Under the pieces are notes generated by a model, which saw only the letters and a list, made by a program, of their open reading frames with translations, was not told the DNA's origin and made no database searches. Below are positions 35,223 to 45,046 of a stretch of 64,000 bases of DNA, in pieces. Source of the stretch: Candidatus Hebobacterum abditum (lineage in GTDB: Bacteria > Armatimonadota > Hebobacteria > Hebobacterales > Hebobacteraceae); contig JALGXW010000014.1 in NCBI GenBank assembly GCA_029821875.1, positions 1 through 64,000 on the forward strand. The letters run 5' to 3'. Positions within the stretch are counted from its first letter, which is position 1, and every line of letters begins with the position of its first letter. Both the position numbers and the translations under genes were made by a program.

Positions 35223-35834
35223 GTGTCGATGGGGGAAGCCGACGTCTCGAGGGCGACGACTGGCGGCGAGGAGGCCGCGGCCGTGTTGGTCGAGGGCCTG
35301 CGGGTCGGTGACGATGGGGCCTACGGCCGGCTCTACGACGACTTCGGAGAGCCCGTCCACCGGTACGTCGCCAGGCTGCTGCGGACGGGGGACGAGCTGG
35401 CGGAGGACGTGATGGTGCAGACGCTGGCCGAGGCCGTGCACAACATCGACCGCTTCGACCCGCGCCGATCAACTTTCCGGGCCTGGCTGTTCGGCATCGC
35501 TCGGCAGAGAGCGCGGGAGGAGCTGCGCCGGCTGAACAGGCGTAAGGCGGTGCCGGCCGGCGCGCAGGTGTCGCTGGAAGCGCTGCCCGAACAGGCTGGG
35601 GCGGCCGACCTGGCGACGGAGTCGGCCGAACGGCTGGACGCGAGGCGACGGGTGCGGGAGATCAGGAGCTGTCTCTCGGGCCCCGAGATGGAAGTGCTGG
35701 TGCTTCGCTGCGTCCACGAGTACTCGCTCAGGGAGATCGGCCACATCATCGGCCGCTCCGAGCGAGCGGCCGAATCGCTGCTGCGCCGGGCCAAGCAGAA
35801 GGCCCGGGAAGGGCTGGACCGCGATGATGGATGA
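35223..35834 (+). CDS. ECF-like RNA polymerase sigma factor
   Basis: Sigma-70 family factor of about 203 residues (GTG at 35223; an ATG at 35229 is closer to the GGGAAAGG SD). Region 2 is at about 38-108 (AYGRLYDDFGEPVHRYVARLL, DELAEDVMVQTL, FRAWLFGIARQRAREELRR). Region 4 is at about 150-198 (GPEMEVLVLRCVHEYSLREIGHIIGRSERAAESLLRRAKQK; only partly quoted as a landmark). The stop overlaps the next gene's start by several bases, so the pair is translationally coupled. A degenerate relative is at 62112-62665, also followed by a membrane sensor protein. Confidence 0.9.
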   Translation: MSMGEADVSRATTGGEEAAAVLVEGLRVGDDGAYGRLYDDFGEPVHRYVARLLRTGDELAEDVMVQTLAEAVHNIDRFDPRRSTFRAWLFGIARQRAREELRRLNRRKAVPAGAQVSLEALPEQAGAADLATESAERLDARRRVREIRSCLSGPEMEVLVLRCVHEYSLREIGHIIGRSERAAESLLRRAKQKAREGLDRDDG

Positions 35835-36834
35835 TCGCTGCGAGAAAGAGCTCGGCGAGCTGCTGGAGTCGGGCGATCCGGTGCGGCCGTTGCGGGCCGG
35901 CGCGAGGTCGCGGGCGCTCCGAGCGATGCAGCGGTCCGCCGCGCAGGGGCCGACCAGCTCGCTGCTCGATCGAATCCTCGGGAAGGGGGAGAAGAAGATG
36001 AGGCGATTCGCCTATGTGGTTGCGTTTCTCGTGCTCATGGGGGCAGCGGCTGGTGTCTTCACGCGGTCGGCCCCGCCGGACCCGCGGAGCATACTCGTCA
36101 GAGCGGCGGAGGCGATGGAAGACGCGACATCGGTGCGCATCGTCGGGCACGGATGTGTAGGCGACCCGTCGTCGCCCAGCGGCATGAGGATGATGTCGGA
36201 ATCGTACGACATGTCGTGGAGGTACAACACGAGTGAGCGGGGAGTGGAATGGTGCATGCGCAACAGCGGCCGCAAGGGGCTCGCCTATAAGATCGATCTG
36301 GACAAGAAGGAGTGGCGATTCTACGACCGCGCCGCGGGCATCTGCTACAGGGCGGATATCACTGAGGTCATGTCCCAGGCGGAGGTACAGGTGCGCGCGA
36401 TGCGAGAGAGTGCGAAGAAGAGGCTGCCCGCACAGCCAGTCAAGGAACTCGATTGGCTCTCGGATAGGCAGGAATCGGTAGAGACGGAGACGCGCGACGG
36501 GCGGAAGATCGCTATCGTCACGGTTACCGGCATGAACTCGCTGACGCCGGAGCCCCTCGCTGAGCGCCACGTGTTCGAGGTCGACATGGCGACGAATCAC
36601 CTGCTCCGGAGCAAGCGCTACGTGCGCGCTGAAGGCAGCGAGGAGCAGCTGCTTGAGACCGTCGATCTCGTGGACTACGACGTGCCGGTGCCCGGCCCTC
36701 CGGAGGACGCGAAGATAGTGACCGCGACGGCCAGAGTGCAGGACTTGGATGTGCCGAACTTGGGGAAGTATCGCAGCCTCCAGATGGTCGCGCCTGACGG
36801 CGAGATCATCGTGCAGAGCGATCAGCCGAGGTAG
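35824..36834 (+). CDS. Single-pass membrane partner of the sigma factor (anti-sigma/sensor type)
   Basis: Protein of 336 residues overlapping the sigma stop by 11 bp. The first about 57 residues are charged and cytoplasmic, then one membrane helix (about 61-80, FAYVVAFLVLMGAAAGVF). The remaining about 255 residues would be extracytoplasmic and resemble LolA/outer-membrane-lipoprotein-sorting or RseB/MucB-like beta sheets: RKGLAYKIDLDKKEWRFYD, and later NHLLRSKRYV. By position and topology it is most likely the regulator of the sigma factor, sensing an envelope ligand. No zinc-finger HxxxCxxC motif is seen. Confidence 0.75.
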   Translation: MMDDRCEKELGELLESGDPVRPLRAGARSRALRAMQRSAAQGPTSSLLDRILGKGEKKMRRFAYVVAFLVLMGAAAGVFTRSAPPDPRSILVRAAEAMEDATSVRIVGHGCVGDPSSPSGMRMMSESYDMSWRYNTSERGVEWCMRNSGRKGLAYKIDLDKKEWRFYDRAAGICYRADITEVMSQAEVQVRAMRESAKKRLPAQPVKELDWLSDRQESVETETRDGRKIAIVTVTGMNSLTPEPLAERHVFEVDMATNHLLRSKRYVRAEGSEEQLLETVDLVDYDVPVPGPPEDAKIVTATARVQDLDVPNLGKYRSLQMVAPDGEIIVQSDQPR

Positions 36835-38212: not shown

Positions 38213-38578
38213 ATGGAGCAGAATCAATGCACGAGCTGTGGCAGGGCGATCCCGGCGGGCGTGGCCCAGTGTCCGCACTGTGGCGCGACGCTGGCCGCCG
38301 CGCCGCCGGCCTACTCTTCGGTTCCCCATCGCGGGGGCATGATCCTGGCCTTCGGGATTCTCGGCCTCATCTGCTGTGCCCCGTTGGGGATTGTAGCCTG
38401 GGTCATGGGGAACGGCGACCTGGCCGAGATGGCCGCGGGTCGGATGGATCGCACCGGGAGCGGGATGACGCAGGCGGGCAAGATCTGCGGGATCGTCGCC
38501 GTGGTTCTCTGGGTCGTCGGCGCCGTCATCTCGATTATGCTCTTCGCGTTGGGGACGGCGATTCCGTTCATGGAGTAG
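38213..38578 (+). CDS. Zinc-ribbon DUF4190-like membrane protein
   Basis: Protein of 121 residues; ATG at 38213 after AAGGGAGGGCAAGTGAG. An N-terminal zinc ribbon (CTSCGRAIPAGVAQCPHCG) is followed by a short Pro/Ala linker and two membrane helices (about 43-64 and 92-115) enclosing GNGDLAEMAAGRMDRTGSGMTQAGKICG, the DUF4190 signature loop, of which only part is quoted here. DUF4190 proteins are small, of unknown role, often annotated as interacting with membrane-stress systems. The DUF2752 gene follows 40 bp later on the same strand and may be co-transcribed. Confidence 0.85.
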   Translation: MEQNQCTSCGRAIPAGVAQCPHCGATLAAAPPAYSSVPHRGGMILAFGILGLICCAPLGIVAWVMGNGDLAEMAAGRMDRTGSGMTQAGKICGIVAVVLWVVGAVISIMLFALGTAIPFME

Positions 38579-38618
38579 GGCGTCTCTGCACGTGACCGAT
38601 GGCGATGGGTGAAGGCCG

Positions 38619-39080
38619 ATGAATCGACGCATGCTCCTGCCCTGGGCGCTGCTGGCGATCTGCCTCGCGCTCTACGCGTGCGTGGTGGCCTATGAGGCGC
38701 GGGGCGGACACGCGCCTGTGCTCTGCGTCTTCCGTGCCACGACCGGGACGCCGTGCCCCACCTGTGGGGCCACGCGAGCCACGCTGGCGCTCGCCGCGGG
38801 GGAGGTGGGCGCTGCCCTTCGACTCAATCCACTGATCGCGGGGGCCTGGCTGCTGTCGCCGCTGGCGGCGGCCGCGGTCCTCGCCTGGCGGAGACGGACC
38901 CCGCGCCTGGGGCACCACGCTCAGGCCCGGCTGAGACAGGCGGCTCTCTCCCTGCTCCTGGTGGTGCTAGCGGCGAACTGGGCCTACGTGCTCCGCCACC
39001 CTCCCGAACTCGAGAACAACGGAGGCGAGGCCCGCCTGCGCGCAGTCCTCGCGCCGGAAGCAGGGCCCGGGGGCCGCTGA
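38619..39080 (+). CDS. DUF2752-family membrane protein
   Basis: Protein of 153 residues. It has the DUF2752 hallmark: a hydrophobic N-terminus (about 6-26), then CVFRATTGTPCPTCGATRATLALAAG with a CPTCG motif, and LRLNPLIAGAWLL, where conserved NPL is diagnostic. Two further hydrophobic stretches follow (about 78-97 and 115-132). Function unknown; the Cys pair could bind metal. It has no strong SD and is near enough (40 bp) to the upstream DUF4190-like gene to share its transcript. Confidence 0.88.
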   Translation: MNRRMLLPWALLAICLALYACVVAYEARGGHAPVLCVFRATTGTPCPTCGATRATLALAAGEVGAALRLNPLIAGAWLLSPLAAAAVLAWRRRTPRLGHHAQARLRQAALSLLLVVLAANWAYVLRHPPELENNGGEARLRAVLAPEAGPGGR

Positions 39081-39147
39081 CCCGGCAGGTCCGTCCGCGC
39101 TCGCCGACCCGAGGCAGCCGGACTGGCGTCGCCGGCGGCCAGCCCCA

Positions 39148-39242
39148 CCTATCCCTCCTCTTGCCGGCTCAGCCTCATCAGCGGCAGGTCGCCCTTCCAG
39201 GCGGCGTGGTTCCACTTCGGGGACTGGCTCTGCCGATTGAGC
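39148..39242 (-). pseudogene. Duplicated 3' fragment of the extended sigma gene
   Basis: On the minus strand this stretch encodes SPKWNHAAWKGDLPLMRL and a stop, matching PAKWNHAGWKGDLPLMRL at the end of the sigma gene at 39807. The nucleotide match is about 50 bp (39171-39220 against 39829-39878, three or so mismatches). It lies directly after the nucleotidyltransferase stop codon, so that gene is bracketed by direct repeats. Confidence 0.75.
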
Positions 39243-39782
39243 CTAGTCTTGTTCCGCTTCCTCAATCAACTCCCCAATGTGGGCCGCGAAGTCGCCCCAT
39301 TCCGCGTACTGCAGGCTGCTCGCTGTCCCCGCCTTGTATTGCCTGAAGGCAGCTAGCTGCTCCTCCCAGGCACTTGCCACCGCTGGATGCTCTCGGAAGT
39401 ACTCCTGCAGCCGGCGCTGGAAGCGCGTCGCCAGCCCATGTGGATCGCAAACGATCTGGCCTCGTGCCAGAGGATAGTAGGTGAAGGGCTCTTCGCTGAC
39501 AGCCTTCTCCAGGGCCTCGGTAGGCCAGCACGCGAAGTGCACGACGACTCCCTCCAGCCGTGACTCGAAGAGCGTCATCCCCTTCTCGCGGTGGAGAACT
39601 GTGGGGTCAAAATCCCGCAGATCGCAGCGGTTGCGGACGACCAGGCAGAGATCCAGGTCAGAGTCAGGGCGTTCCTCACTCCTCTGCACGCTCCCGAAGA
39701 GGATCACCCCGCACTCCATCTCGCTGCGGCGGAGACGCTCGACGACCTCTGCGAGAAGAAGGCGATGCCTGGTCATGCCCAT
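39243..39782 (-). CDS. Nucleotidyltransferase-domain protein (MNT/kanamycin-NT type)
   Basis: Protein of 179 residues. The polymerase-beta-like core is plain: GVILFGSVQRSEERPDSDLDLCLVV contains the GS motif and the DxD metal pair (Asp41/Asp43 region), with a third acidic residue likely in VVVHFACWP nearby. The C-terminal half is helical (QRRLQEYFREHP and following). Such minimal NTases act as antitoxins (MNT of HEPN/MNT pairs), as aminoglycoside or nucleic-acid modifiers, or unknown. No HEPN gene is adjacent. The gene is flanked by a 50-bp direct repeat derived from the neighbouring sigma gene, which suggests insertion or tandem duplication. Confidence 0.82.
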   Translation of the reverse strand: MGMTRHRLLLAEVVERLRRSEMECGVILFGSVQRSEERPDSDLDLCLVVRNRCDLRDFDPTVLHREKGMTLFESRLEGVVVHFACWPTEALEKAVSEEPFTYYPLARGQIVCDPHGLATRFQRRLQEYFREHPAVASAWEEQLAAFRQYKAGTASSLQYAEWGDFAAHIGELIEEAEQD

Positions 39783-39806
39783 GGAGAAGGACTTCTCGGC
39801 TCTCCC

Positions 39807-41510
39807 TCACGGCCCCTCCGGGGGCACGAGCCTCATCAGCGGGAGGTCGCCCTTCCAGCCGGCGTGGTTCCACTTCGCCGGCGGCGAGTCGCCAAGTTCG
39901 GGCAGCGTCCCCTGCTTCACCATGAACCGCAGGGCCTCGCCGAGGATGAAGCCGCACAGCCAGTGTCGCCACACCGGGTACTGGTCGCGGCGGTGCTCGT
40001 ATCCCATCTCGTCCAGCAGCGCGTCCAAGTCAGACCAGATTGGAGCGAGCACCTCGGTTGCGATCGGCTCGATGATCCGAAGCACCACTGGCGCAAGCAC
40101 CTCGCTGTCGCCCTCCCGCCAGACGGGGAAGGTAGGCCGATAGGCATCGCCGTCGGCGCGCTCGACAAGGCTCTTGCTGACCAGCTCGGCGAGCGTGGAC
40201 CTATACTGCTCGCGCTCCTCCTCGTCGAAGTGGGAAAGCATCTTCTCCTCGGGCAGCGGCCCCTCCAGCAGCGCGACCAGCACCTCTCGCCCGCGGGGCG
40301 GAGGCCCGAAGATCCAGTCGTAGCCTTTGTGACTCATTGAGGGGCCAAAGTGCCCCACGCCCCAGGCCGGGCGCTCGGTGCCGTACCACCCAGGCGCGTC
40401 CATCTCCGGACCCTCAGGCACGTACTCGTAGCCGCCCAGCCAGTAGGGGAATCCGCCGGGCCGCATCGGCCGTGGCTGCGTCTTTGCTCCGCACAGGAGA
40501 GCGGGGACGCCGCGGTTCGCGACGATGAGGCAGTTCACCGCCCACACGACGTCATCCCACGACCACCCCGACGAAGCCAGGGGCGTCCGCTCATAGGCCG
40601 CGCGCAGCGCCTCCTGCGAGTCGGCCAGCCGGCGCGCTATCTCGCCCGCAGGCTCGCGCATGCGGGCCACCAGCTTCCGCCAGTCTTCGGCGTCGAAGGC
40701 CATGAAGTTGAGCAGGTAGGTATCCTTGCGCGGCGAGACGAGCACCTCCAGCTCGGCCAGATTGTGGACCACACCGGCCACATACTTCTCGTGGGCCTCG
40801 ACCGCGGTGGCGATCTCCTTCACGGTCTTGGCGCGCTTGTTGACACTGAGGCAGATCGTCTGGGCGAGAGCTGAGTGGAGACGCGTCGGCACGTCCCATT
40901 CCCCGTGTGGCACTTCGCCGGACATCCAGTTGGACAGTGTCCGCGGTCCCGTCGGTTCGGTGTCTGTCATGGCTCTGCACTCCGTGCGCACCTTGCGGCG
41001 CGAGTCGTGGAGGATCCGCTTCACTCTCCCGGCCGACACCCCGAGCTTCCCCGCGATCTCTTCACAGGTGAATCCCTCGAGGTAGTGCAGGATCATCACC
41101 TGCCGGTGTCGCTGGGAGAGCGCGCTCAGGGCCCCGCGAACGAGCGCCACTACTTCTTCCGGTGGCTTGGGTGGTGGCGCGGCGGCCCCGACCAGGCTGT
41201 AAAGAGCGGCCGACTCGGTCGGCTCCGGCGTCCGACGGCCGTCGCGGTGCCACTGGACACTCTGTCGGCGGACGATGGTGTTGAGCCACTGCCCGAAGCG
41301 GGTCCCGTCGCGCAGCGAGTCCAGCGACCGGAAGGCCCGCAGCAGCGCCTCCTGCACCACGTCCTGCGCGGCCTCGGCCTGGCCGGTGATGTGCCGGGCG
41401 ATGTCGTAGAGCCGGCCGCGGTGGCGCATGACGAGGTGGTCGAAGGCGGCCACCTCGCCCCGGCGCGCCCGCTCCACCAGCTCGGCATCGGTCCCCGGCC
41501 CAGGCCTCAT
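39807..41510 (-). CDS. ECF sigma factor with long C-terminal extension
   Basis: Protein of 567 residues, three times the normal ECF size. The ATG at 41510 follows GGGAGG by ten bases and gives a normal ECF N-terminus; the open frame running further upstream is only antisense to the BACON-SLH gene. Region 2 is at about 22-90 (LYDIARHITGQAEAAQDVVQEALLRAF...); region 4 is at about 118-178 (LSQRHRQVMILHYLEGFTCEEIAGKLGVSAGRVKRILH, partly quoted). The 390-residue tail has two winged-helix-like blocks (about 210-265, KTVKEIATAVEAHEKYVAGVV; and about 395-445, GREVLVALLEGPLPEEKMLSHFDEEE) and an aromatic-rich segment (FPYWLGGYEYVPEGPEM). The tail is likely a built-in sensor or inhibitor; no separate anti-sigma gene is adjacent. 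Confidence 0.85.
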   Translation of the reverse strand: MRPGPGTDAELVERARRGEVAAFDHLVMRHRGRLYDIARHITGQAEAAQDVVQEALLRAFRSLDSLRDGTRFGQWLNTIVRRQSVQWHRDGRRTPEPTESAALYSLVGAAAPPPKPPEEVVALVRGALSALSQRHRQVMILHYLEGFTCEEIAGKLGVSAGRVKRILHDSRRKVRTECRAMTDTEPTGPRTLSNWMSGEVPHGEWDVPTRLHSALAQTICLSVNKRAKTVKEIATAVEAHEKYVAGVVHNLAELEVLVSPRKDTYLLNFMAFDAEDWRKLVARMREPAGEIARRLADSQEALRAAYERTPLASSGWSWDDVVWAVNCLIVANRGVPALLCGAKTQPRPMRPGGFPYWLGGYEYVPEGPEMDAPGWYGTERPAWGVGHFGPSMSHKGYDWIFGPPPRGREVLVALLEGPLPEEKMLSHFDEEEREQYRSTLAELVSKSLVERADGDAYRPTFPVWREGDSEVLAPVVLRIIEPIATEVLAPIWSDLDALLDEMGYEHRRDQYPVWRHWLCGFILGEALRFMVKQGTLPELGDSPPAKWNHAGWKGDLPLMRLVPPEGP

Positions 41511-41780
41511 CGGAAGCCGTCCTCCCGCCAGTCCAGACGCGGCACACCGCCCAATGGTTTGCCTTCGGAGGCGGGAGGCAGACATCCTACTGATGGACGG
41601 CCAGGAGCCCCCCAGGCGCGACCCGGTCGCGTTGCCGACTGAGGCGGAGAATTGGCGGCAGGGGGGCTGGAGGCAGTGGCGAAGGGTGGTCAGTGGGACC
41701 GAGGTCCGGAGTGCTCTTTCCCTGAGTCGGGCCCAGCAGCACCGTGCCTTGCGCGGGACTATGGTGTAAAGGGGAGCCAA

Positions 41781-43715
41781 ATGGACACACGCCGATCGCT
41801 GGTCGGTTTCGTCCTCTCCGTCGTTCTCTGCCTCTCGGGGGCGGCCGTCGCCCGTGGCCAGGGGGGGCCCGTTCTCGCGGTCAGCACCAACAGCCTCGAT
41901 CTCGGGATCATCGGCGGCGCCACAAGCGACAGCTCTGTCTACGTCTACAACGCCGGCAGTGGGTGCTTCAGCTGGCTCATCGCGGACACGGAGGAGTCCT
42001 GGCTTACGGTTGAGCCGGCGGAGGGCAGCGACACCTACACATGCGAGGAAGACGACTACCTCCTGATCCAAGTTGACCCTTCCGGCCTCGGCGGCGGCCC
42101 GGAAAGCGGCTCGTTCCAGGTGCGCCGGCCAGGCGGCGGCGGCTTCTCCGAGACCATCACGGTCAGCTTTGACTATCAGGCGCCCACTGGGCTCGAGGTC
42201 AACAAGACCAATGTGAATCTCGGGGCGATCACCGGGCCTGTCGCCGACGACTCCGTCTACGTCTACAACGCGCCGCCCCCCGCGTCTATCAGTTGGACGG
42301 TGACCGAGAGCGTTGCCTGGCTTGCGGTGAGCCCGATGTCGGGCACGACGACAACGGGGCAAGACACCCTCACCATCACGGTGGACCCCACGGGGCTCAC
42401 GGCCGGGCAGTCCTACAGCGACAGCTTCACGGTGACTCGGGATGGCGCGCCGAGCGACTCGGCGACCGTGACCGTGGACTTCACCTTCAAGAACTCGATC
42501 GGGATTTCGGTCAGCGGGACGCCGCCCTCGGGGCAGAAGGCCGGAAGCATCTCTGTCGCCGGGGCGGCGGCCTGGTACCACTTCGACGTCCCGGCCGGGG
42601 ACACGAAGCTCTGGAACCTGTGGACGGAGGTCGGCGTCGACACCGTCCTGGGGCTCTACACCGCAGTGGACGGGACGCTCCTGGCCGAGAACGACAACTG
42701 CGATGCGGGGGCGTGCGGCCTCGACCATTCTCCGCTTCACTCCAGGATCGACTATGACCTGAGCGGCGGCACGCGCTACTACCTGAAGGTTGAAGCCTTC
42801 GGCAGCGCCGCCGGCGATTACACGGTCCACGTGCGAGAGCAGGCGAACACGCCGCCCGAGCTGACCAACGGCAGCCTTACGCCTGACTCCGGCGATGACA
42901 CGACCACATTCACCTACTCGGTGGACTACTACGATATGGACGGCGATGCCCCGGCGACGAAGGAGGTCGTCATAGACGGCACGCCCTACCCCATGGCCCT
43001 GCAGAGCGGCGATGCGTATGACGGGACGTACCGGTACCAGACGACCGGCGCCGACCTCGGCATGGGCGATCACACCTACTACTTCTCCTTCACCGATGGT
43101 GAGGGAGGGACCGCCCGGCTGCCAACCTCAGGCACGGAGTCCGGCCCCACGGTGACCATCGAGTTCCCGGATGTTCCCGTCACCTTCTGGGCCTACGATG
43201 AGATCCAGGGCTGCGTCATGGGCGGCGTCGTGGGCGGCTACCTGGATGGCTACTACCACCCGGAGTTGCCGGTATCACGGGACCAGATGGCGGTCTTCGT
43301 CGCCCGCGCCCTCGAAGGCGGTGACGCCAATGTCCCCGACGGGCCGGCCGTGGCCACCTTCAACGACGTGCCCACCGACCACTGGGCCTACAAGTACGTC
43401 GAGTACTGTGTGCAGGAGGGCATCGTCGCGGGCTATGACCCCGTGACCTACGCGCCGACGGTCGCCGTCACCCGAGATCAGATGGCGGTCTACATCGCCC
43501 GCGCTCTTGCCGGCGGCGAGAGCGGCATTCCCAGCGGGCCGGTCATCCCGCACTTCAACGATGTTCCCGCCGGGACCTGGGCCTACAAGCACGTCGAGTA
43601 CTGCTACAGCCAAGAGGTCGTGGCTGGCTACCTGGACGGCCTCTACCACCCCGAGTACATCGTTACCCGCGACCAGATGGCCGTCTACGTCGCGAGGGCG
43701 TTCGTGACGCCGTAA
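41781..43715 (+). CDS. Secreted BACON-repeat and PPC-like protein with three SLH domains
   Basis: Protein of 644 residues. The ATG at 41781 follows AAAGGGGAGCCAA; a signal peptide ends near ARGQ (residue 26). Two BACON-type domains follow (about 30-120 and 122-225: SVYVYNAGSGCFSWLI..., VAWLAVSPMSGTTTTGQDTL). Then come a PPC-like domain (about 230-330, AAWYHFDVPAGDTKLW, DLSGGTRYYLKVEA), an Ig-like domain with an xxDMDGDxP loop (about 335-455), and three SLH repeats (about 460-644). BACON and PPC domains occur in secreted enzymes and glycan-binding proteins. No catalytic domain is present, so a binding or structural role is likely. Confidence 0.9.
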   Translation: MDTRRSLVGFVLSVVLCLSGAAVARGQGGPVLAVSTNSLDLGIIGGATSDSSVYVYNAGSGCFSWLIADTEESWLTVEPAEGSDTYTCEEDDYLLIQVDPSGLGGGPESGSFQVRRPGGGGFSETITVSFDYQAPTGLEVNKTNVNLGAITGPVADDSVYVYNAPPPASISWTVTESVAWLAVSPMSGTTTTGQDTLTITVDPTGLTAGQSYSDSFTVTRDGAPSDSATVTVDFTFKNSIGISVSGTPPSGQKAGSISVAGAAAWYHFDVPAGDTKLWNLWTEVGVDTVLGLYTAVDGTLLAENDNCDAGACGLDHSPLHSRIDYDLSGGTRYYLKVEAFGSAAGDYTVHVREQANTPPELTNGSLTPDSGDDTTTFTYSVDYYDMDGDAPATKEVVIDGTPYPMALQSGDAYDGTYRYQTTGADLGMGDHTYYFSFTDGEGGTARLPTSGTESGPTVTIEFPDVPVTFWAYDEIQGCVMGGVVGGYLDGYYHPELPVSRDQMAVFVARALEGGDANVPDGPAVATFNDVPTDHWAYKYVEYCVQEGIVAGYDPVTYAPTVAVTRDQMAVYIARALAGGESGIPSGPVIPHFNDVPAGTWAYKHVEYCYSQEVVAGYLDGLYHPEYIVTRDQMAVYVARAFVTP

Positions 43716-44114: not shown

Positions 44115-44525
44115 TCACCTGGGGGAGGCGGCGATTTCGTTGGCGAGGGCCCGACGTTCCTGCTCTGAGGCGAGGAGGAGGCGGCGCAGGACATAGGGGA
44201 CGAGGATGACCACCACCGCGACTTCCACGCCAGTCTCGATTGGGAGCGGCAGCAGTCGCAGGGCCAGGCTCATGATGACGAGGAGGGGCGCAATCCACGC
44301 CACGTGAGGGCGAGGCCCGCGGAGGCGCTGCGGGATCTCCACCCGCGGCTGGAACACAGCTTCCCGGGCGTGAGCCTTCAGGTCATCGTCCAGCCGCGCC
44401 AGTTCCTCATACTCGCGGCGGAGCGCCGGATCGTCGGCGATTGCCTGGCGGACCTCAGCGGCGCGGGCGGGGGTCAGCTCGCCGTCGAGCAGAGCCGAGA
44501 GTTCGGAGGGGTCAATTCGTGTCAT
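44115..44525 (-). CDS. Anti-sigma factor-like membrane protein
   Basis: Protein of 136 residues with LSALLDGELTPARAAEVRQAI at the N-terminus (residues about 9-30). This matches the start of anti-sigma (zf-HC2/RskA-type) domains, although the zinc-binding H-x3-C-x2-C is missing. Two membrane helices are predicted (about 72-90 and 95-115). Its ATG overlaps the stop of the ECF sigma gene by 3-4 bp, so it is surely translated with it and probably holds that sigma factor at the membrane. The short loop between the helices (PIETG) leaves little sensor domain outside. Confidence 0.82.
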   Translation of the reverse strand: MTRIDPSELSALLDGELTPARAAEVRQAIADDPALRREYEELARLDDDLKAHAREAVFQPRVEIPQRLRGPRPHVAWIAPLLVIMSLALRLLPLPIETGVEVAVVVILVPYVLRRLLLASEQERRALANEIAASPR

Positions 44526-45046
44526 CTGGGTTCCCTTTCAGAGATCGCGACCAGGGCCCGGCGCGCCGCATGGAGGCGCGACATCACGGTTCCGACCGGG
44601 ATCCCAAGGGCGGTCGCGATCTCCTGATAGGAGCAGTCGCCGAAGTAGCGGAGTTGGATGATCTCCCGGTGCTCGGCGCTGAGCTGGCCGATCGCCGAGC
44701 GGAGCATGTCCCTGCGCTCGGACTCTTCCCACGCGGACTGGTCGCCGGCGGGCAGATCGGCGGCATCGACCGCGATGCTCGGGGGCCGACGGGCGCGACT
44801 GCGCTGGATATCGCGGCAGCAGTTGCGGACGATCGCGAACCACCAGGCCTTGAACCCCCGCGAGCGGTCGTATCGCGCCAGGCCGCGGTGCGCCTTCAGC
44901 AGAGCCTCCTGGATGGCGTCCTCCGCGTCTTCTCGGTTCCCCAGTAAAGAATGCGCATAGGCCGCCGCCCGGCCGAGCAGCGGCTCGGCCAGACGGTGCA
45001 GCTCATCGTCAGCCTGCTGCGAGCGTTGGCTCACGGGCCAGTCCAT
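44522..45046 (-). CDS. ECF RNA polymerase sigma factor
   Basis: Sigma factor of 174 residues, normal ECF length. Region 2 at about 20-90: LLGRAAAYAHSLLGNREDAEDAIQEALLKAHRGL and FKAWWFAIVRNCCRDIQR (landmarks, quoted in part). Region 4 at about 120-168: AIGQLSAEHREIIQLRYFGDCSYQEIATALGIPVGTVMSRLH. It is SigE/RpoE-like. It is coupled by stop/start overlap to the anti-sigma-like gene downstream. The DUF4190-like gene at 45063-45371 lies immediately upstream on the same strand (16 bp), so the three may be one operon. Confidence 0.9.
   Translation of the reverse strand: MDWPVSQRSQQADDELHRLAEPLLGRAAAYAHSLLGNREDAEDAIQEALLKAHRGLARYDRSRGFKAWWFAIVRNCCRDIQRSRARRPPSIAVDAADLPAGDQSAWEESERRDMLRSAIGQLSAEHREIIQLRYFGDCSYQEIATALGIPVGTVMSRLHAARRALVAISEREPR

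Follow-up and report, generated by a model that had tools for sequence, protein, structure and literature searches.

An ECF sigma factor with a repeated winged-helix-like tail recurs in Armatimonadota

A single reading frame in the window analysed here (the whole 64,000-nucleotide stretch of DNA) joins an ECF sigma factor to a C-terminal tail of about 380 residues, and this one-piece design recurs as 12 fusion genes in 10 of the 291 Armatimonadota genomes that were covered by profile searches. We posit, giving it about an even chance of being right, that the product is an orphan, autoregulated ECF sigma factor controlled by its own double winged-helix tail, with no anti-sigma protein taking that part. 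The reading draws on the conservation of the fusion, an internal repeat in the tail, the lack of an adjoining anti-sigma gene, and an ECF-like promoter in front of the four nearest fusion genes. When an ECF sigma factor carries its own regulator, a single protein serves as a compact signal switch, of use both for studying gene circuits and for constructing them; if the tail regulates the sigma domains, it would bring a new kind of control domain to such factors. The literature that was searched holds no study of such factors in Armatimonadota.

The fused gene and its relatives

The window gene (Table 1) runs from an ATG at 41510 to a stop codon at 39807-39809, and the open frame of 567 residues contains zero internal stops. 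The frame remains open 5' of this ATG as far as 43073; we place the start at 41510 because of the GGGAGG motif 10 nt upstream and the conserved promoter block. The earlier note had described an ECF sigma factor that continues in one frame into a tail of 390 residues, and this description holds, with regions 2 and 4 over their Pfam cut-offs and a tail of nearly the length given there. The protein also scores over the cut-off of TIGR02937 (sigma70-ECF). Region 3 appears in Pfam only as a sub-threshold sliver overlapping region 4, leaving the ECF arrangement, in which no complete region 1 or 3 separates region 2 from region 4. No RNA family was found within 38500-42500.

Table 1. Features of the fused sigma factor gene and their coordinates in the window
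Feature	Coordinates	Strand	Remarks
ECF sigma factor gene with C-terminal tail	39807..41510	(-)	567 aa, ATG start, stop included
ECF-like promoter AAACCATT-N16-CTGGA	41532..41560	(-)	conserved in 4/4 nearest fusion genes
Putative ribosome-binding site GGGAGG	41521..41526	(-)	10 nt 5' of ATG; assigned from sequence
Sigma-70 region 2, residues 26-94	41229..41435	(-)	PF04542 E 6.1e-15, over cut-off
Sigma-70 region 4, residues 124-175	40986..41141	(-)	PF04545 (residues 127-175) E 1.8e-14, PF08281 E 1.9e-11, both over cut-off
ATG of Met181 at sigma/tail junction	40968..40970	(-)	candidate internal start (hypothesis)
Tail module 1, residues 208-341	40488..40889	(-)	winged-helix-like part then helices; repeat of module 2
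Aromatic-rich segment between modules, residues 342-402	40305..40487	(-)	YWLGG.E conserved in nearest relatives
Tail module 2, residues 403-539	39894..40304	(-)	winged-helix-like part and two long helices; conserved GYxHxxxQ stretch

The fusions are found in genomes G000 (the genome of the window gene, two copies), G002 (two), G010, G032, G045, G056, G250, G058, G282 and G224, and are absent from G001, the one other genome listed of the same genus. The second copy in G000 shares 45% identity with the window protein over residues 5-560. The sigma regions were confirmed by Pfam in the window gene, L056, L077, L078, L079 and L022, judged by eye in the second G002 gene, whose region 2 is partly masked, and taken from the alignment in the remaining fusions. 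Weaker profile matches (E of about 1e-5 to 1e-2) were counted only where they had been read as frames; among these, L056, L073 and the pieces in G254 proved to be relatives, and the others resembled other proteins. The reach of these searches is set by their centring on Armatimonadota. A scan of genome contigs with a four-row tail alignment, which reaches only sites with one of two short motifs, returned 26 candidate stretches, including one relative (CP070816), whose coordinates coincide with those of G002.

Two observations had been named in the earlier note as fatal to a one-piece factor, namely a stop or frameshift between sigma and tail, and homologues in which the two are separate genes. 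Neither refutes the one-piece design, which is genuine and has been conserved: no such interruption is present in any of the 12 genes (one of them with region 2 partly masked), and no relative was found in which sigma and tail are encoded side by side by two genes. With 11 further genes of the same design, a frameshift or assembly chimera in the window is ruled out. An origin from a mobile element was likewise rejected, as viral contigs, plasmids and phages yielded no relative of the tail. Between the window gene and its G002 counterpart, identity amounts to 71% in region 2, 75% in region 4, and 74% and 72% in the two tail modules, compared with 14% in the part that separates region 2 from region 4; in more distant pairs the tail is only moderately less conserved than the sigma regions.

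The earlier note had also suggested looking for the tail as a free protein, and tail-only relatives do occur in two genomes, from which we conclude that the tail is a module in its own right. G275 carries one intact tail-only gene (L021, 1501-2712) and one truncated copy, G254 a frameshifted copy (L072) with a hydrophobic start like that of L021, and a partial tail match was seen in G274. The N-termini of L021 and L072 resemble signal peptides, which is odd for a winged-helix protein.

A tree of the sigma domains (20 rows, 11 fused and 9 unfused, the partly masked G002 gene being left out) does not unite the fusions in one clade and needs four changes, with long branches present. All fusions may still have had a single origin.

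Make-up of the tail and comparison with known ECF groups

No Pfam family matches the tail over cut-off (a scan of the whole protein listed 16 families up to E 1), and a sequence search for relatives of solved structure gave nothing convincing (best E 0.02). The tail is related to itself: when the tails of 13 proteins were split into halves and the profiles of the halves compared with hhalign, they matched with a probability of 97.2 (E 3e-11 for a single comparison, 93 columns), and we therefore regard the tail as a tandem duplication. The sequence of each copy suggests a winged helix with long helices after it. Module 1 has weak, sub-threshold Pfam matches to winged helices, and module 2 has none even below cut-off. 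A model of module 2, built from four rows (the window protein and L029, two repeats each), shows three helices and a two-stranded wing in the order expected of a winged helix (H4-13, H19-23, H28-43, E47-50, E54-57), at moderate model confidence (mean pLDDT 58.6). Many unrelated winged helices can be aligned with its residues 1-60, at Z scores of about 6 (best 6.6, over 59 residues); these alignments, as far as the model can be trusted, give the fold and not the family. Foldseek returned zero matches below E 0.001. A model of the whole tail from two sequences was unusable (pLDDT 37.7).

The two winged-helix-like blocks of the earlier note are thus supported by an internal repeat, whose second copy is predicted to have the helix-helix-helix-strand-strand order. 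The aromatic-rich segment claimed alongside them is also evident, W, Y and F making up 17% of residues 341-410 and 8% of the protein overall. In the more distant fusions L056, L073, L077 and L078, the place that GYxHxxxQ occupies in module 2 of the window family is taken by a conserved RCSF..C stretch, a possible ligand or metal site.

ECF groups with a C-terminal extension and without an anti-sigma factor are described in one survey (PMC8999054), and another counts 19 groups with extensions of 50-200 residues (PMC9023288). We set the window protein apart from them by their described domains rather than by group profiles. ECF41 (e.g. SigJ) resembles it in having no anti-sigma factor and a regulatory C-terminal extension, regulation being inferred in our case, and differs in that its extension is SnoaL-like, whereas the window tail consists of about 380 residues with two winged-helix modules (PMC8999054). 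No SnoaL family is among the 16 Pfam families up to E 1. ECF42 shares a long, mostly helical C-terminal extension without an anti-sigma factor, which as described there is made of TPR repeats over about 200 residues (PMC8999054), whereas TPR families are absent from the same 16; in the relative L077, weak TPR matches fall in the sigma part.

CorE/CorE2 (ECF238) and OrbS (ECF243) have metal-sensing C-termini on board, as stated in both surveys (PMC8999054, PMC9023288). The surveys ascribe to CorE-like ECF238 proteins a cysteine-rich C-terminal domain, with a CXC between regions 2 and 4 in former ECF44 members. In contrast to these cysteine-based metal sites, the window protein has cysteines only at 149, 178, 220, 327, 340 and 519, of which the four after residue 181 are scattered over the tail, and no CXC. 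Extensions of comparable length, up to 400 residues, are reported for ECF48, ECF52 and ECF53, where they comprise a fused zinc-finger anti-sigma domain and membrane helices (PMC8999054). Neither is seen in the window tail: Pfam gave no zf-HC2 match in the window protein, and by a crude test no convincing membrane segment is present (highest 19-residue hydropathy 1.67, compared with 0.91-1.62 in 11 relatives).

In the literature searched, a limited collection, no title or abstract described a winged-helix tail on an ECF sigma factor. The earlier note had called the design unusual; this stands for the tail's length and for its composition of two winged-helix modules, but not for C-terminal extensions as such, which other ECF groups are known to have.

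Promoter and neighbouring genes

All four of the nearest fusion genes share the pattern [GA]AACCnTT-N16-CTrGA with identical spacing, directly 5' of the ribosome-binding site. An AAC-containing -35 element marks ECF promoters, and the pattern, with this element before each of the four genes, is predicted from sequence to be of the ECF type; it resembles the sigma-E consensus. Across the four upstream regions, 14 of the 31 columns of the block are invariant, a value reached in 0 of 200 dinucleotide shuffles (maximum 10), shared descent also contributing to this conservation. The pattern was then searched without mismatch in eight genomes, having been derived from the four genes on which it was counted. 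G000 has three exact matches, two of which precede its two fusion genes, and G002 and G010 have one each, in both cases before the fusion gene; five genomes without a tail match have 0, 0, 1, 1 and 3 exact matches, and the reversed pattern gave five in all eight genomes together. The other fusion gene of G002, which is more distant, lacks the pattern; by eye, two further distant pairs, L012/L013 and L077/L078, seem to be preceded by separate promoter-like blocks.

This ECF-like promoter lies just before the start codon and seldom occurs elsewhere in the genomes concerned, so it is probable that the factor activates its own gene. In G000 there is no sign of a wider regulon: one-mismatch matches number 24 there versus 43 for the reversed pattern, which is no excess. 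With the conserved promoter as a ready reporter, regulation by the tail could be tested directly in a laboratory host.

The earlier note was right that no anti-sigma gene adjoins the window gene: the Pfam-annotated neighbours are a nucleotidyltransferase gene downstream and a divergently transcribed gene for an S-layer-homology/BACON protein upstream. Around other fusions (the second G000 copy, the first G002 copy, G010, G032 and G045) the neighbours, read from translations with Pfam applied only to those of the window gene, differ among genomes.

Several features of the surroundings may be recorded here. The divergent gene (41652-43715, (+)) encodes S-layer homology domains and BACON-like repeats, and a single intergenic region serves both it and the sigma gene. 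The anti-sigma-like gene closest to the window gene (44115-44525, (-)), whose zf-HC2 match is sub-threshold, overlaps an ECF gene of its own (44522-45046); the two (44115-45046, (-)) make up a sigma/anti-sigma pair of the ordinary kind, 2.6 kb away. Another ECF sigma gene overlaps a 336-residue gene that has a membrane-like segment and no Pfam match (35223-36834, (+)). A direct repeat of 49 bases, 47 of them identical, lies at 39171-39219 and at 39829-39877. It duplicates the sigma gene's 3' end and flanks the single-copy nucleotidyltransferase gene (39243-39782, (-)), as if the latter had been inserted there and had carried or restored the last codons of the sigma gene.

Possible functions of the tail

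By analogy with ECF41, ECF238 and OrbS, it is plausible that the tail senses or inhibits. We propose that it packs on or near the sigma domains, and that a signal would alter this contact and let the sigma domains use RNA polymerase; in the simplest case the signal would be a small ligand that binds to the tail's helical and aromatic part. The active sigma factor would then transcribe its own gene, forming a positive feedback switch. Several points speak against control by an on-board sensor. A sensor with no target but its own gene makes an incomplete account, and by their sigma domains the fusions, taken together, are not a single clade. Moreover, winged helices usually bind DNA, and sensing is therefore not the obvious role for the tail.

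The tail may instead be a built-in DNA-binding activator: by binding to an operator close to the promoter, its winged helices would hold the sigma factor in place, and one chain would combine sigma factor and activator. The two winged-helix-like modules suit this idea, as does the near confinement of the promoter pattern to the factor's own genes, which fits a need for extra DNA contacts. We nevertheless hold it to be rather unlikely: the block upstream of the four genes is a single promoter-like stretch, with no second conserved block seen by eye further upstream, and module 2 lacks a Pfam match even below cut-off. It is about as doubtful that the tail is a docking platform to which a partner protein binds, turning the sigma factor on or off, as proposed for the TPR tail of ECF42 (PMC8999054). 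Its mostly helical, repeated architecture would allow such a role, yet the contexts examined share no neighbour gene that might encode the partner, and the tail has no TPR match.

A further reading, which we consider quite improbable, is that one frame gives two products, the full fusion and a free tail started at Met181 that could act in trans as the factor's own anti-sigma protein or co-regulator. If true, the Met181 start would supply a sigma factor and its own regulator from one reading frame. The linker contains a methionine in 12 of 12 fusion genes, and the linkers together hold 23 Met in 271 residues, compared with 1.4-3.4% Met in the proteins themselves. Among the six nearest genes Met181 is the sole invariant residue between R175 and R190, the residue after the junction Met is small (T, A, A and S, with A after the second Met in L012/L013), and GC3 drops from 0.8-0.9 to 0.6 near it in four high-GC genes. 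The tail-only genes of relatives were also counted in favour of a free tail. A Shine-Dalgarno-like stretch at the junction Met is the strongest among in-frame ATGs in five of the six genes and ranks third in the window gene. Synonymous selection for it was not detected in these six, where recoding gave equally strong stretches (p 0.05 to 0.83, for the best-placed Met of each gene, which in L012/L013 differs from the aligned Met), and in L077 to L079 a typical internal start is not apparent by eye.

Finally, a chance fusion or decaying gene, in which an ordinary ECF sigma factor carries the tail as a passenger, would fit the patchy distribution (10 of 291 genomes, not including G001) and the broken or truncated tail copies in G254 and G275, but is very improbable and already disfavoured by the twelve open fusion genes and by a tail conserved like the sigma regions between the window gene and G002 and only moderately less in more distant pairs.
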